DNA from: Gaiellales bacterium
Lineage (GTDB): Bacteria; Actinomycetota; Thermoleophilia; Gaiellales; JAICJC01
DNA: 64,000 bases
NCBI GenBank assembly: GCA_036403155.1
Contig: DASWRM010000070.1
Location: 1-64,000 of the forward strand
Direction: 5' to 3'
Part shown: positions 15,969 to 22,193 of the stretch, in pieces
Layout of the letters: each line of letters starts with the position of its first letter
Numbering within the stretch: position 1 is the stretch's first letter
Notes under the pieces: model-generated
Database searches by the model: none
What the model saw: the letters and a program-made list of their open reading frames with translations, nothing else
What the model was told of the DNA's origin: nothing
Made by a program: the position numbers and the translations under genes

Positions 15969-16487
15969 TCACGGCTTCCACTTGATGCTGCATCCGACCG
16001 GCTCGGTCTCTGGGCGCCGCAGCTCGACGCCGGAGAGCACCTCGTCGATGGCCTCCCGCAGCCACACGGCGTTCGCGGCCGGATCGTCATGATCCTCATC
16101 CGGCGCGCCGCGGTAGCGGACGCGCATCTCGCGGTCGACGACGAACACGTCGGGCGTGACCTGGGCGCCGAACTCGCGGGCCACTTCCTGGCTCTCGTCG
16201 TGGAGATACGGCCCGGGCCAGTCCTCACCGGCGACCCGCTCGCGCATGGCCTGGAGCGAGTCAGCGGGGTAGCGCTCGCCGTCGTTGGGGTTGACGAACA
16301 CCATCCGGACGCCGCGCGGCTGGTAGTCCCGGGCCACGTCCACCAGGCGGCGGTGCCACGCGAGCGCGTAGGGGCAGTGGTTGCAGGTGAAGACGACGAC
16401 GACCGGCCCGTCGCCGACGAGCTCGGACAGCCGGTGCTCGCGACCGTCCGTGTCGGGCAGCGCGAAGTCGCTCGCGGCCGCGATCAT
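15969..16487 (-). CDS. Thioredoxin-fold peroxiredoxin-like protein (AhpC/TSA-like)
   Basis: A 172-residue cytoplasmic redoxin. The N terminus FALPDTDGREHRLSEL and the strand VVVVFTCNHCPYA are typical of the PRX_like1 group. Cys35 and Cys38 form a CNHC pair; Pro in TPDVFVVD is the cis-Pro loop. Members are thought to be thiol oxidoreductases or peroxidases, mostly uncharacterised. The ATG at 16487 overlaps the stop of the upstream thioredoxin-like gene (ATGA), so they form a two-gene operon. It is divergent from the TMADH-ETF fusion gene, which suggests a redox link but does not prove one. Confidence 0.8.
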   Translation of the reverse strand: MIAAASDFALPDTDGREHRLSELVGDGPVVVVFTCNHCPYALAWHRRLVDVARDYQPRGVRMVFVNPNDGERYPADSLQAMRERVAGEDWPGPYLHDESQEVAREFGAQVTPDVFVVDREMRVRYRGAPDEDHDDPAANAVWLREAIDEVLSGVELRRPETEPVGCSIKWKP

Positions 16488-16816
16488 GCCGCGACCGCCC
16501 GCGCCAGCGCCGCGCGGACGGCGTCCGGCTCCGGGGTGGGCGAGACGCGGCCGTCCGCACGGCGGTAGACCCGGCAGGTGAGCGCCGGGGGCTCGTCGCT
16601 GGGGAACAGGTCGGCGCCGTCGACGCGGATCGTGGGCGACCCGGGAAACCGCTCGCGCACGGCCTGCTCATCGTCGGCGATCTCGCGGACGTCGACGGCC
16701 TCCGGGTCGAGGCCCGCGTCGTCGAGCGCAGCGCGCAGGTCGTCGAGCGCCCGTGTCGTGGACGGGCACCCCTGCCACCAGAGAAGCTCGACATGCGGTG
16801 TCACGCCGGGCAGCAT
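16484..16816 (-). CDS. Small thioredoxin-like protein
   Basis: About 110 residues with a thioredoxin-like beginning, HVELLWWQGCPSTTRALDDL, and the cis-Pro segment FPGSPTIRVDGADLFP. Only one Cys is present at the usual active-site position (CPST); another is found in LTCRVYR. The pattern recurs in small actinobacterial proteins annotated as thioredoxin-like or related to alkylmercury lyase accessory proteins. ATG 16816 is chosen; an ATG at 16855 would add 13 residues, and a GTG at 16804 would give VTPHVELLWW. It lies upstream of, and overlaps, the redoxin gene. Confidence 0.65.
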   Translation of the reverse strand: MLPGVTPHVELLWWQGCPSTTRALDDLRAALDDAGLDPEAVDVREIADDEQAVRERFPGSPTIRVDGADLFPSDEPPALTCRVYRRADGRVSPTPEPDAVRAALARAVAA

Positions 16817-16871
16817 ACCCGGGCCGGTTCGCCGGAAATCGGCTCGTGCGATCATCTAGGATCGCCAGCCG

Positions 16872-19430
16872 ATGCCGTGCGATCCGCGCCACGCGATCCT
16901 CTTCGAGCCGGTCACGATCGGCCCCAAGACGCTCGCCAACCGCTTCTACCAGGTGCCCCACTGCACCGGGTTCGGCGTCGAGAAGCCCTGGTCGCAGGCG
17001 CGCCACCGCGCCGTGAAGGCGCAGGGCGGCTGGGCCGCGGTGTGCACCGAGTACTGCACGATCAACCAGGAGTCGGACGAGACGCCCTACGTCTCGGCGC
17101 GGATGTGGGACGACCACGACGTCCGCATGCTCGCGATCACCGCCGACCAGGCCCACGAGCTCGGCGCGCTGGCCGGGATCGAGCTGTCACACACCGGGGT
17201 GCACGGCGAGAACAGCGAATCGCGCCTGCCCGCGCCCGGCCCGTCGCAGATCGCGAGCGACTTCGCGGTCGGCGTCGTGCCCAAGGCGATGACGAAGCGC
17301 GACATCCGCCGCGTGCAGGACGACTGGGTGGCCGCGGCGCGCCGCTCGCGAACCGCGGGATTCGACATCGTCTACGTCTACGGCGCCCACACGTACCTCC
17401 CCGGCCAGTTCCTGTCGCCCCACTACAACCGCCGGACGGACGAGTACGGGGGGTCGCTGGCAAACCGTGCCCGCTTCTGGCTGGAGACGCTGGAGCGCGT
17501 GCGCGAGGCGGTGGGCGACGACTGCGCAGTCGCGTGCCGGGTGGCGGTCGACGCCCGGGGCGCGCTTGGAGTTGATCTGGACGAGGGCCTGGAGTTCGTC
17601 ACGCTCGCCGACCACCTGGTCGACCTGTGGGACGTGAACGTCGGCTCGATCGGAGAGTGGTCGCTCGACTCCGGCCCGTCGCGGTTCTTCGCCGAGGGCT
17701 GGCAGCTCGAGAGCACGGGCCGGGTGCGCGAGGCCACGCGCAAGCCGATCGTCGGCGTCGGCCGTCTGACCAGCCCGGATCTGATGGCCGACATCGTGCG
17801 CAGCGGAGCCTGGGATCTGATCGGTGCAGCGCGGCCGACCATCGCCGACCCGTTCCTGCCGGAGAAGATCCGGCAGGGCCGGGTCGACGAGATCCGCGAG
17901 TGCATCGGCTGCAACGTCTGCATCTCGAAGGCCGACAGCCGCCGGCACCTCGGCTGCACCACCAATCCGACCGCGGGGGAGGAGCACCGCCGCGGCTGGC
18001 ATCCCGAGCACGTGCCGCCGCTCGAACAGCCGATGCACGTCCTGGTGGTCGGCGCGGGCCCCGCCGGGATGGAGTGCGCGATCACGCTCGCGCGGCGGGG
18101 AGCGCGCGTCGACCTGGTCGAGCGGGGACCCGCCGCGGGCGGCTCGCTCGCCTGGATCACCCGGCTGCCCGGCTTCGGCGAGTGGGGCCGGCTCGGCGCA
18201 TACCGTGCGGTGCAGATCGCCCGGCTTCCGAACCTCGAGCTGCACCTGGGCCGCGAGCTGGACGCGGACGCCGTTCGCGGCTGGGGGGCGGACGCCGTGG
18301 TGCTCGCCACCGGGTCGGGCTGGTCGGGTGACGGGCTGAACGGCTTCACCCGCGAGCCGATCCCGGGCGCGGACGCGACCCAGCCGCACGTGCTGACCCC
18401 CGAGCAGGTGGTGCTCGAGGGCAAGCGCCCGCCCGGCGCCCGCGTCGTCGTCTACGACGCCGACGGGTACTACGCGGGGCCCGGCGTCGCCGAACTGCTC
18501 GCCCGGGAGGGTCACCGCGTGGCGCTTGTCACCGCGCACGACACCGTGGCCCCGTTCGCCGCGGAGACCCTCGAGGACGCGCTCACCCGCGACCGCCTGC
18601 ACGCGGCCGGTGTTGCGATGCGGCGATCGACGGTGGTCACCGGCATCGAGCCCGGCCTGGTGACCGCGACCGGCGAGTTCGGCGAGCCGGAGACGATCGA
18701 GGCGGACGGGATCGTGCTCGTCACCCAGCGCGTGTCCCACGACGGCCTTTTCCACGAGCTGGACGGGACGCTCTCCACCCTCCACCGGGTCGGCGACTGC
18801 GTCGCGCCGCGGCTGCTGGCCGACGCGGTGTTCGACGCGCACCGCCTCGCGCGCGAGATCGACCGGCCGGACGCCGCGGTCGCCCAGCCGTACCTCCGGG
18901 AGCGCCCGATGATGGATCCGCCGCCGGCGGCGACGATGCCCGAGCCGGCCTTCCTGCCCGAGCGGGCTTCGCCGGCGGCCCGGTCCGTCCAGATGCTCGA
19001 CGGCGACGCCGCGCAGGTCGCAGGGCGCCTGGCCCAGATCGCACGGGAGCATGGGCCGCTGGTCGTCGCCGCAGGGCGCGGCGCGGGCGACGACCTGGCT
19101 CCCTTCCGGAGGCTGGCCGAGCTCTGCGGCGCCCGCTTCGCCGTCTCGAGGCCGCAGGTGGAGGCCGGCCGCGCCGTCCGCGCCGAACTGGTCGGCGCAA
19201 GCTCCGCCACGGTCAGCCGCGGCACCTATGTCGCCTTCGGCATCTCCGGGGCGCTTCCCCACCTCGTCGGCCTCGGGTCCGGGGCGCGGGTGGTGGCGGT
19301 CAACATCGATCGCAGCGCGCGCATCTTCGAGCACGCGGACGTGGGCGCCGTGGCGGACGCGGCCGAAATCGCGAGCCTGATGTGCGACGAGGTGGTTGCG
19401 CATGACCTCGAAGCGCCCCCTTTTGGGTGA
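16872..19430 (+). CDS. Trimethylamine-dehydrogenase-like flavoprotein fused to ETF-alpha FAD domain
   Basis: An 852-residue iron-sulfur flavoprotein. Residues 1-340 form an OYE-type FMN barrel very like trimethylamine dehydrogenase (TMADH): ILFEPVTIGPKTL, and VPHC with Cys31 at the position of the 6-S-cysteinyl-FMN Cys30. Tyr61, Tyr170 and His173 match TMADH active-site residues. The 4Fe-4S ligands are Cys344, 347, 350 and 362. A nucleotide-binding domain begins at VVGAGPAGME (392-401). Residues about 705-835 are not part of TMADH; they match the C-terminal FAD domain of ETF alpha (VVAAGRGAG, SRPQVEAGR, FGISGALPHLVG, IFEHADVG). The family oxidatively demethylates amines and passes electrons to ETF, so the fusion could carry its own electron acceptor. 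The TMADH aromatic-bowl Trp355 is replaced by Ala354. TAGGAT lies 9 nt before the ATG. Confidence 0.88.
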   Translation: MPCDPRHAILFEPVTIGPKTLANRFYQVPHCTGFGVEKPWSQARHRAVKAQGGWAAVCTEYCTINQESDETPYVSARMWDDHDVRMLAITADQAHELGALAGIELSHTGVHGENSESRLPAPGPSQIASDFAVGVVPKAMTKRDIRRVQDDWVAAARRSRTAGFDIVYVYGAHTYLPGQFLSPHYNRRTDEYGGSLANRARFWLETLERVREAVGDDCAVACRVAVDARGALGVDLDEGLEFVTLADHLVDLWDVNVGSIGEWSLDSGPSRFFAEGWQLESTGRVREATRKPIVGVGRLTSPDLMADIVRSGAWDLIGAARPTIADPFLPEKIRQGRVDEIRECIGCNVCISKADSRRHLGCTTNPTAGEEHRRGWHPEHVPPLEQPMHVLVVGAGPAGMECAITLARRGARVDLVERGPAAGGSLAWITRLPGFGEWGRLGAYRAVQIARLPNLELHLGRELDADAVRGWGADAVVLATGSGWSGDGLNGFTREPIPGADATQPHVLTPEQVVLEGKRPPGARVVVYDADGYYAGPGVAELLAREGHRVALVTAHDTVAPFAAETLEDALTRDRLHAAGVAMRRSTVVTGIEPGLVTATGEFGEPETIEADGIVLVTQRVSHDGLFHELDGTLSTLHRVGDCVAPRLLADAVFDAHRLAREIDRPDAAVAQPYLRERPMMDPPPAATMPEPAFLPERASPAARSVQMLDGDAAQVAGRLAQIAREHGPLVVAAGRGAGDDLAPFRRLAELCGARFAVSRPQVEAGRAVRAELVGASSATVSRGTYVAFGISGALPHLVGLGSGARVVAVNIDRSARIFEHADVGAVADAAEIASLMCDEVVAHDLEAPPFG

Positions 19431-19660: not shown

Positions 19661-20992
19661 ATGGCCCGAGATCACGTGGTCGTTCTTGGAGGGGGCAGCA
19701 CGGGGGAGGCGTTCGTGTCGGCGCTGCGGGAGTACGAGCCCGACACGCCGATCACCCTGGTCGAGCGGGAGCTGGTCGGCGGCGAGTGCTCCTACTGGGC
19801 GTGCATGCCCACGAAGGGCATGCTTCGCCCGCTCGAGGCGGTTGCGGCGGCGCGCAACGTGCCCGGCGCCGCCGAAGCCGTCTCGGGTGATGTCAGCTGG
19901 GACGGCGTCCTGCGCCATCGCGACGCGATCACGGGCGGCTGGGACGACGCGAGCCAGGCATCGTGGCTGGCCTCGAAGCACGCCGAGCTCGTGCGCGGGG
20001 AGGGCCGGGTCGCCGAGCCTGGGGTCGTCGACGCCGGCGGCCGGCGGCTCGAGTACGGGCGCCTGGTCATCGCAACCGGCTCGGTGCCGTCCGTCCCGCC
20101 GGTACCCGGGCTCGCCGAGACGGGATACTGGACGAACCGCGAGGCGACGGCCGTGCGGGAGATCCCCGCCAGCCTGATCGTGCTCGGCGCCGGACCCGTC
20201 GGGTGCGAGCTTGCACAGTTCTTTCGGCGGATGGGCAGCACGGTGTCGATCGTCGACGTGGCGGAACGACTGCTCCCGCGCGAGCACGCGGACGCCGGCG
20301 CGCTGCTCGGACGGTTCTTCGAGGAAGAGGGCATCGCCCTGCATCTCGGTGAGCCCGTCGAGCGCATCGAGCCCGGCATCCGGCTCCACCGCGGCTCCGG
20401 CGACGTGGTCGAGGCCGAGCGTCTGCTCGTGGCCACCGGGCGGCGGGCGAACGCGTCGGGCTTCGGCTTCGAGCAGCTCGGCGTGACCACCGGCCGGTCG
20501 GGCATTCGGGTCGACGACCGCATGCGTGCTGGCGACGGCGTCTGGGCGATCGGCGACGTCAACGGCATCGCGATGTTCACCCACGCAGGCAAGTACCAGG
20601 CGCGCATCGCGGCCGCCGACATGGCCGGGCGGCCGGCGCACGCCGACCACCGCGCCGTACCGGCCGTCACCTTCACGGATCCCCAGGTGGCGTCGGTGGG
20701 AGTCACGTCGGGCGACGGGCTGGTGACCGGAGAGCGTGCCATCGACCAGGTCTCGCGGACGTCGACGTACGAGCGGCCGAAGCGGCCGGGGTTCCTCAAG
20801 GTGGCTGCCGACCCGGAGCGCGGCGTGCTGGTCGGGGCGGTCGCCGTGGGGCCCGAGGCGGGCGAGTGGCTCGGCCAGCTGACGCTGGCGGTGCGCGCGG
20901 AGGTGCCGATCGCCGTGCTGCGCGACACGATCCAGCCCTACCCGACGTTCTGCGAGGCGATCCAGTTCGCGCTCCGCGACCTGCCGCTCTGA
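19661..20992 (+). CDS. NAD(P)/FAD-dependent disulfide-reductase-like oxidoreductase
   Basis: A 443-residue class I pyridine nucleotide-disulfide oxidoreductase homologue. It has an N-terminal FAD motif (VVVLGGGSTGEA), the redox pair Cys43-Cys48 in GGECSYWACMPTK, a second dinucleotide motif (VLGAGPVGCELA, about 175-186), ATG and GD (WAIGDVNG) motifs and a dimerisation domain. The C terminus has QPYPTFCEA where lipoamide or mercuric reductases have HPT with catalytic His, so classical disulfide chemistry at the dimer interface is uncertain. The ATG follows GGAGG at 6-7 nt. It lies downstream of the TMADH-ETF fusion and might accept or donate electrons in the same pathway; this is inference from position. 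Confidence 0.82.
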   Translation: MARDHVVVLGGGSTGEAFVSALREYEPDTPITLVERELVGGECSYWACMPTKGMLRPLEAVAAARNVPGAAEAVSGDVSWDGVLRHRDAITGGWDDASQASWLASKHAELVRGEGRVAEPGVVDAGGRRLEYGRLVIATGSVPSVPPVPGLAETGYWTNREATAVREIPASLIVLGAGPVGCELAQFFRRMGSTVSIVDVAERLLPREHADAGALLGRFFEEEGIALHLGEPVERIEPGIRLHRGSGDVVEAERLLVATGRRANASGFGFEQLGVTTGRSGIRVDDRMRAGDGVWAIGDVNGIAMFTHAGKYQARIAAADMAGRPAHADHRAVPAVTFTDPQVASVGVTSGDGLVTGERAIDQVSRTSTYERPKRPGFLKVAADPERGVLVGAVAVGPEAGEWLGQLTLAVRAEVPIAVLRDTIQPYPTFCEAIQFALRDLPL

Positions 20993-20999
20993 CCTCCCG

Positions 21000-22193
21000 T
21001 CAGGTGCCAAGCGCCGGGAGCAGCTGGTTCGCCGCACGCCGTCCGCTGCGTAGCGCGCCCTCCATCGTCGCGTACCAGACCGGCTCGGTGTGCTCGCCCG
21101 CGAACGCGACCCGCCCGACCATCCGGCTCAGGCGGTCGTCCAGATCCCCCGGGCGGCCGGCTTCGCGCGCGGAGTAAGCGCCGCCCGGCCAGGTTGCGAG
21201 CACCGCGGCGTCGGGCACCAGCGCCAGGTCGGGTCTCAGGGCGGCGACGCGCTCGACGTACCCCGCCGGACCGCCGTCGACGGCCAGGGCGTCCACCGCC
21301 TCGCCCGAGCCCGCGAACGCGGCGACGAGCGGGGCGACGTCGCCGTCCTCCCCGAGCGCGGTCCACGTCCAGAAGTGGCCTGGCACGGACAGCACGGAGC
21401 TCGGCTGCGGCCGCTCCGCCAGCGGGACAGCCAGCTTGGCGGCCTGTCCGTACACGACCTCGTGCTGCGCCGAACGCTTCCAGTCCGGCAGCGGCGGCTC
21501 GAGGCGGATGCCGGAGACCGCATGTGCGGGAACCGCGACGATGAGGCCGTCCACCCGCAGGTCGCCGTTCACCACCAGGGACCCGCCGGCGTTCTGGCGC
21601 ACCTCGCGCGCGGGGGTCGACAGCAGCACTCGAAGTGGTGCTGCGAGGCGCTCCGCGACCTGCTGGTTGCCGCCGGCCACGCGGCGGGCCTCGCCCTCCC
21701 GGAACAGATGGCCGACGTCGCGGACGGCGTCCGCCGCCAGGCGCGACGTCTCGTGCGCGTAGCTGACCTGTATCCGGCAGGCGATCAGCTCTCGCGCGCC
21801 CGCGTCGAGATGCAGGCGCGCGAGCAGCTCGTCGACGGTCGCTCCGGCACCGTCGCCGCGGGCGAGCGCCGTCTCGACGACCCGGAGCGCACGCTCGAGA
21901 CCCGGGCCGTCGACGCCCATGCCGCCTCGCGGCTCGCGCCGCGCGAAGCTCATCCCCATCGGTGCCAGCTCGAGGCCGAGCCGGCCGATCAGCTCGGGCA
22001 GCACCTCGTAGCCCTCCGTCACGAACTCCGCGCCCATCTCGATCACCGAGCCGTCGGGGAGGCGCTGGGACCAGACGCGGCCGCCGACGCGGTCGCCCGC
22101 CTCGAGGACGATCGGCTCGACGCTCGCGCGGGCCAGCTCGTCGGCGGCCGCGAGGCCCGCGAGCCCGCCTCCGATCACCGCGACCGCCGTCAC
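21000..22193 (-). CDS. Flavin-containing amine oxidase
   Basis: A 397-residue FAD-dependent amine oxidase of the MAO/polyamine-oxidase superfamily. The FAD-binding N terminus is VAVIGGGLAGLAAADEL, followed by VLEAGDRVGGRVWS, the second family fingerprint. The C-terminal FAD contact GRVAFAGEHTEPVWYATMEGA is complete. It probably oxidises a primary or secondary amine, giving an aldehyde and hydrogen peroxide; the substrate is unknown. It ends eight bases from the convergent reductase gene. Its ATG overlaps the stop of the upstream cation-exchanger gene (ATGA), so it is the last gene of that minus-strand operon. It is shorter than typical MAO (450-500 residues). Confidence 0.85.
   Translation of the reverse strand: MTAVAVIGGGLAGLAAADELARASVEPIVLEAGDRVGGRVWSQRLPDGSVIEMGAEFVTEGYEVLPELIGRLGLELAPMGMSFARREPRGGMGVDGPGLERALRVVETALARGDGAGATVDELLARLHLDAGARELIACRIQVSYAHETSRLAADAVRDVGHLFREGEARRVAGGNQQVAERLAAPLRVLLSTPAREVRQNAGGSLVVNGDLRVDGLIVAVPAHAVSGIRLEPPLPDWKRSAQHEVVYGQAAKLAVPLAERPQPSSVLSVPGHFWTWTALGEDGDVAPLVAAFAGSGEAVDALAVDGGPAGYVERVAALRPDLALVPDAAVLATWPGGAYSAREAGRPGDLDDRLSRMVGRVAFAGEHTEPVWYATMEGALRSGRRAANQLLPALGT

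Follow-up and report, generated by a model that had tools for sequence, protein, structure and literature searches.

A trimethylamine dehydrogenase-family protein whose C-terminal extension looks like a single-chain, base-free domain II of electron transfer flavoprotein

Introduction

Which part of an electron acceptor has been joined to an amine dehydrogenase when the two are read from a single open frame, and might that part still carry electrons? In a normal electron transfer flavoprotein (ETF), the base, formed by domains I and III and including the recognition loop of EtfB, docks on the dehydrogenase, and domain II searches the dehydrogenase surface. Enzymes of the trimethylamine dehydrogenase (TMADH) family use ETF as their acceptor (PMC8097209, PMC7688666), and in the crystal of the TMADH:ETF complex it is the base that does the anchoring, the FAD domain (domain II) being invisible because it is mobile (PMC8097209). 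The gene considered here lies in the genome of a Gaiellales bacterium, an actinobacterium of soil type, within a stretch of 64,000 nucleotides (contig DASWRM010000070.1 of assembly GCA_036403155.1) that was analysed as a whole and is called the window below. A preliminary description of the gene proposed a TMADH-like enzyme with the FAD domain of EtfA built in, so that part of the acceptor would be tethered to the dehydrogenase.

Results

One frame joins a TMADH-family module to an ETF-derived end

The open frame at 16872-19430, on the forward strand like all features of the protein given below, encodes 852 residues with no internal stop. That its first 680 or so residues (16872-18911) are TMADH-like, as had been proposed, is borne out by a match to Oxidored_FMN at residues 10-339 (272 bits) followed by Rossmann-type domains from residue 388, with Pyr_redox_2 and the OYE-like second domain also matched, and by a search of solved structures in which TMADH (1djn) comes first with 690 bits over residues 4-679 and histamine dehydrogenase stands behind it at 528-537 bits for two structures (3k30, 6de6). 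Cys31 (16962-16964) aligns with the FMN-linking Cys30 of TMADH and thus corresponds to the cysteine of 6-S-cysteinyl-FMN, cysteines 344, 347, 350 and 362 (17901-17957) align with those of the 4Fe-4S cluster, both as previously assigned, and the active-site triad Tyr169-His172-Asp267 (TMADH numbering) is conserved. With homology along its full length, the module belongs with the Fe-S flavoenzymes TMADH, DMADH and HADH.

It does not have the full aromatic pocket of TMADH in the narrow sense. In the alignment with TMADH, Y60 and W264 (W263 here) are kept, but W355 is Ala and W105 is Ser, and we therefore speak of a TMADH-family member and not of a TMADH; these replacements also suggest that the enzyme probably acts on a larger amine than trimethylamine. 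The nearest unfused relatives likewise have neither W105 nor W355, whereas most of the operon-type TMADHs encoded beside etfBA keep both. We also considered a change specific to the fusion at V344 and Y442 of TMADH, which we take to be the electron path to ETF, and rejected it, as almost all members of the family have Glu and Arg at these positions.

The same fusion is carried by another genome of the genus (G004, a Thermoleophilia MAG; contig L001), where it is 78% identical over its whole length including the linker.

The extension looks like a whole domain II

The domain search put forward earlier as a check on the C-terminus returned a strong match to ETF_alpha (PF00766) at residues 730-801, with 58 bits for the whole protein and 61 bits for the C-terminus alone against a cut-off of 27 bits, and the last 169 residues alone retrieve ETF-alpha chains among solved structures with E values down to 4e-18. 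The EtfA FAD domain had been placed at residues 705-835; the assignment to EtfA stands for residues 729-835 (19056-19376), but residues 705-727 (18984-19052) resemble the C-terminal arm of EtfB, which had been missed. Directly N-terminal of the EtfA part lies a piece that matches the one described in PMC9232219, SVQMLDGDAAQVAGRLAQIAREHG, with RVELLEGAAGQVAARIDELVQGRG as its G004 counterpart, and the fused arm resembles the C-termini of EtfBs whose genes adjoin a TMADH gene, for example AEMLDGGAAEVAQRIKEIVQEK.

This likeness was first noticed by eye and then tested with a profile of EtfB ends that was built without the fusions and run on 6,103 ORFs. EtfBs ranked first, followed by the two fusions (E 5e-4 to 2e-3) and then by noise from 0.3, such that EtfBs and the two fusions were the only entries below E 0.01, although the match is short and modest; a broader EtfB profile gave the same ranking with weaker values. 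In an AlphaFold2 model of residues 679-852 (mean pLDDT 85), a strand at 707-709 and a helix at 713-726 are predicted with high confidence, and strand plus helix is the form that the EtfB arm takes in ETF domain II (PMC5691135). When the model of the C-terminus was submitted to Foldseek, ETF-alpha structures came first. In the full-length model the ETF-derived domain has low confidence, and the Pro/Ala-rich linker preceding it (residues 681-703; 18912-18980), partly conserved in G004, is predicted to be disordered (pLDDT below 50).

No match to the ETF base domain (PF01012) was found in the fusion protein or on the window's contig. The protein thus does not contain a complete ETF, being without domains I and III and the EtfB recognition loop, and it appears to have both components of domain II, namely the C-terminal FAD-binding fold of EtfA and, by a short match, the strand and helix of the EtfB arm. 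The plan therefore appears to be a TMADH module, a flexible Pro-rich linker, an EtfB arm and an EtfA FAD domain, in that order. What is new here is that the extension looks like a complete single-chain ETF domain II without its base, and so goes beyond an EtfA FAD domain alone; as far as sequence and model show, it is the whole moving domain of the acceptor, and not a slice of it, that has been tied on.

The flavin site and a possible tethered relay

In human ETF the flavin is contacted by R249 (pi-cation), T266 (at N5) and H286 (at N1-C2=O) (PMC5827430). The corresponding residues of the fusion are R760, S777 and H797, and Ser is also found at the S777 position in 15 of 17 TMADH-linked EtfAs. 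The equivalents of N300, D302 and D318 are intact, as is GISGA. Both fusions retain 23 of the 31 columns conserved in 90% or more of a set of 33 free EtfAs; the otherwise nearly invariant Q265, G267 and Q285 (human numbering) are changed in both. The shared changes fall mostly in the loop at 767-779 (19170-19208), which is rewritten in both copies with S777 retained, and comprise W to R, Q262 to L, Q265 to A and G267 to S, so that the usual QVGQ(T/S)GK reads LVGASSA in one fusion and LVGASSR in the other. Part of this rewriting is to be expected because the base is gone: in human ETF, N259 of the equivalent loop makes contact with EtfB E165, a partner that is absent here. The changes at Q265 and G267 could also alter the cofactor site, and the fusion lacks what the base, EtfB Tyr16 included, normally contributes to the flavin pocket. 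The preliminary description had noted LVGASSATVS in place of the motif and suggested that FAD binding may differ; the replacement is real, but S777 would preserve the hydroxyl that contacts N5, and the alignment indicates that all three ring contacts survive. In our estimate the fused domain would still bind FAD.

We consider it fairly probable that this single-chain domain II serves the TMADH-family amine dehydrogenase as a tethered relay whose FAD receives electrons one at a time from the 4Fe-4S cluster. The substrate amine would reduce the cysteinyl-FMN, as the conserved C31 and Tyr-His-Asp triad imply, and electrons would pass singly to the cluster, whose cysteines are conserved, and from there to FAD in domain II, whose architecture is supported by the profile and the model; the linker, in place of the absent base, would keep the domain tethered. 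The earlier idea of a tethered acceptor is upheld, as are the earlier domain assignments, residues and coordinates, the TMADH and ETF_alpha matches lying in one frame, and we infer the carriage of FAD and electrons. Least certain is the final step, in which the reduced domain would most likely hand its electrons to ETF-quinone oxidoreductase (ETF-QO), encoded once in the genome, on contig C79.

Contigs C79 and C53 of the same genome encode two complete etfBA pairs, to which its four PF01012 matches belong, in keeping with the earlier remark that the window itself holds no etfA or etfB. These complete ETFs could serve the TMADH part without any extension, which counts against the relay, and they also favour a reading in which the ETF fold has been kept and its FAD and electron role lost, leaving a structural or docking module, for instance for the genome's ETF or ETF-QO. 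Consistent with such a loss, the nearly invariant Q265, G267, Q285 and Trp positions are changed in both copies, and the ETF-derived domain evolves faster than the TMADH part, with dN/dS between the window and G004 copies of about 0.28 for the EtfA part and about 0.18 for the TMADH part. The value of about 0.28, however, still places the fused EtfA domain under purifying selection, and this, together with the retention of the isoalloxazine contacts, of the N300, D302 and D318 equivalents and of GISGA, makes the loss of the flavin role unlikely in our view. With complete EtfB/EtfA bases encoded on C79 and C53, the tethered domain II might also be imagined to plug into the base of one of these ETFs and displace its domain II to form a hybrid complex. 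This is very unlikely, as the free ETFs already have a domain II of their own and both fusions have a rewritten version of the loop that faces the base in human ETF, where N259 forms a pair with EtfB E165.

Gene neighbourhood in two genomes

Eight neighbouring genes keep their order around the fusion in the window and in G004: amidase, glycerol kinase, MFS transporter, TetR regulator, redoxin and a small ORF on one side of it, pyridine nucleotide-disulphide oxidoreductase and amine oxidase on the other. The oxidoreductase (19661-20992, forward strand) adjoins the fusion in both genomes and could be taken to mean that the added flavin partners a nicotinamide system of this kind and not the quinone pool, but about 230 bases separate the two genes in the window, adjacency says little because the whole neighbourhood is syntenic, and we found no precedent, so that we give this reading scant credence. 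We rule out with near certainty that two genes were joined by an assembly or frameshift error, for which the preliminary description had allowed near 18.9 kb and which has only the draft state of the genome (79 contigs) in its favour, because a second species has the same full-length chain between the same genes.

Genes of thiol-redox type flank the fusion on both sides, all of them syntenic in G004. At 15969-16855 on the reverse strand are the redoxin and the small ORF with a CPST motif, the small ORF having no Pfam match, and the oxidoreductase on the other side has a CSYWAC motif. The flavin-containing amine oxidase (21000-22193, reverse strand), two genes downstream of the fusion, is also kept in G004.

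Distribution and origin of the fusion

Such fusions had been thought at least uncommon, and the survey agrees: when about 85,000 species genomes were scanned, the G004 protein was the only fused one among the 80 best relatives kept, and no further fusion was seen in samples of 399 genomes of the class and 397 of the phylum (partly the same genomes). No other TMADH homologue in these samples matches along the ETF part, and, to judge from their open frames, the listed proteins of other genera that match the C-terminus are ordinary EtfAs. In a plasmid collection nothing matched the C-terminus above 60% identity, and we found no paper describing such a fusion in the open-licence literature. The fusion looks restricted to the genus, in the sense that within the sampled genomes it is seen there only; uniqueness is beyond the reach of the sampling. 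Two candidates were set aside: in G084, an open frame of 1001 residues that matches EtfA proved to be a normal etfB/etfA pair lying within one long frame, and a 635-residue frame on C53 merely runs on upstream of EtfA.

In the sister genus of the family the orthologue is unfused (65-66% identity), and the match ends at residue 688. This gene (in the region L143:7024-14378; G003 contig C96) has a tryptophan 2,3-dioxygenase and two amino-acid permeases as neighbours, which may hint at N-methylated amino acids as its substrates. The window's own genome has an unfused paralogue, about 60% identical, on contig C57 (in the region L138:2128-5669), directly adjoining a methyltransferase of the MTTB family (PF06253), a neighbour that points to the breakdown of quaternary or tertiary amines.

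As to the source of the ETF part, related operons are ordered TMADH-etfB-etfA, which is also the order of the pieces in the fusion, and this suggests that the fusion arose from such an operon by losing the parts in between. A tree of 35 EtfA C-terminal domains gives no placement, the fusion lying on a long branch with support of 45/0. Descent of the fused domain from the C79-type EtfA was rejected (p 0.011) and descent from the C53-type was not (p 0.109). Judged by similarity, in the EtfA part as well as in the arm, a TMADH-linked etfBA is the favoured source, though this is no proof.

Discussion

The closest solved relative of the fusion is the TMADH of Methylophilus methylotrophus W3A1 (1djn; ETF complex, 1o94), with which it has in common the FMN cysteine, the Tyr-His-Asp triad, W264 and the 4Fe-4S cysteines. 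TMADH, however, ends where the linker of the fusion begins and relies on a separate ETF, and its pocket residues W105 and W355 are Ser and Ala in the fusion. Histamine dehydrogenase and 6-hydroxypseudooxynicotine dehydrogenase (Pno) are of the same family, and Pno too has ETF as its acceptor (PMC7688666), but neither possesses a C-terminal ETF domain, Pno being a 73-kDa protein. From the side of the acceptor, the extension recalls domain II of EtfAB (1efv, 5ol2, 7qh2) in combining the EtfA C-terminal fold with a strand and helix like the EtfB arm; there, domain II is formed by two chains and hinged to a base, whereas here it would be a single chain, free of the base and tied to the dehydrogenase. 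The TMADH-etfB-etfA operons found in related Thermoleophilia and in alphaproteobacteria (for example L144, L146, L150 and L018) encode the same partners in the same order, with EtfBs that end like the fused arm, but as three separate genes with a complete ETF, and their TMADH parts are only 46-53% identical to that of the fusion.

Should the tethered relay operate, it is tempting to go further and to imagine an amine dehydrogenase that is self-wired, its base-free domain II with FAD relaying electrons from the cluster straight to a quinone-reducing partner so that no soluble ETF is needed, a proposal that we advance only tentatively. With domain II alone tethered to it, the chain amounts to a test set up by nature of whether the docking role of the base can be separated from electron transfer by a freely sampling domain II. 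If it works, it would be a one-gene, ETF-independent amine dehydrogenase, useful for trapping the electron-transferring state and for bioelectrodes.

Variation in the family also extends to the active site. Three TMADH homologues (L152:8346-10478, L145:8573-10714 and L137:1438-3630) have Glu-Glu in place of the Tyr169-His172 pair and keep the FMN cysteine and the cluster, and those of L152 and L145 adjoin etfBA; their chemistry may differ.
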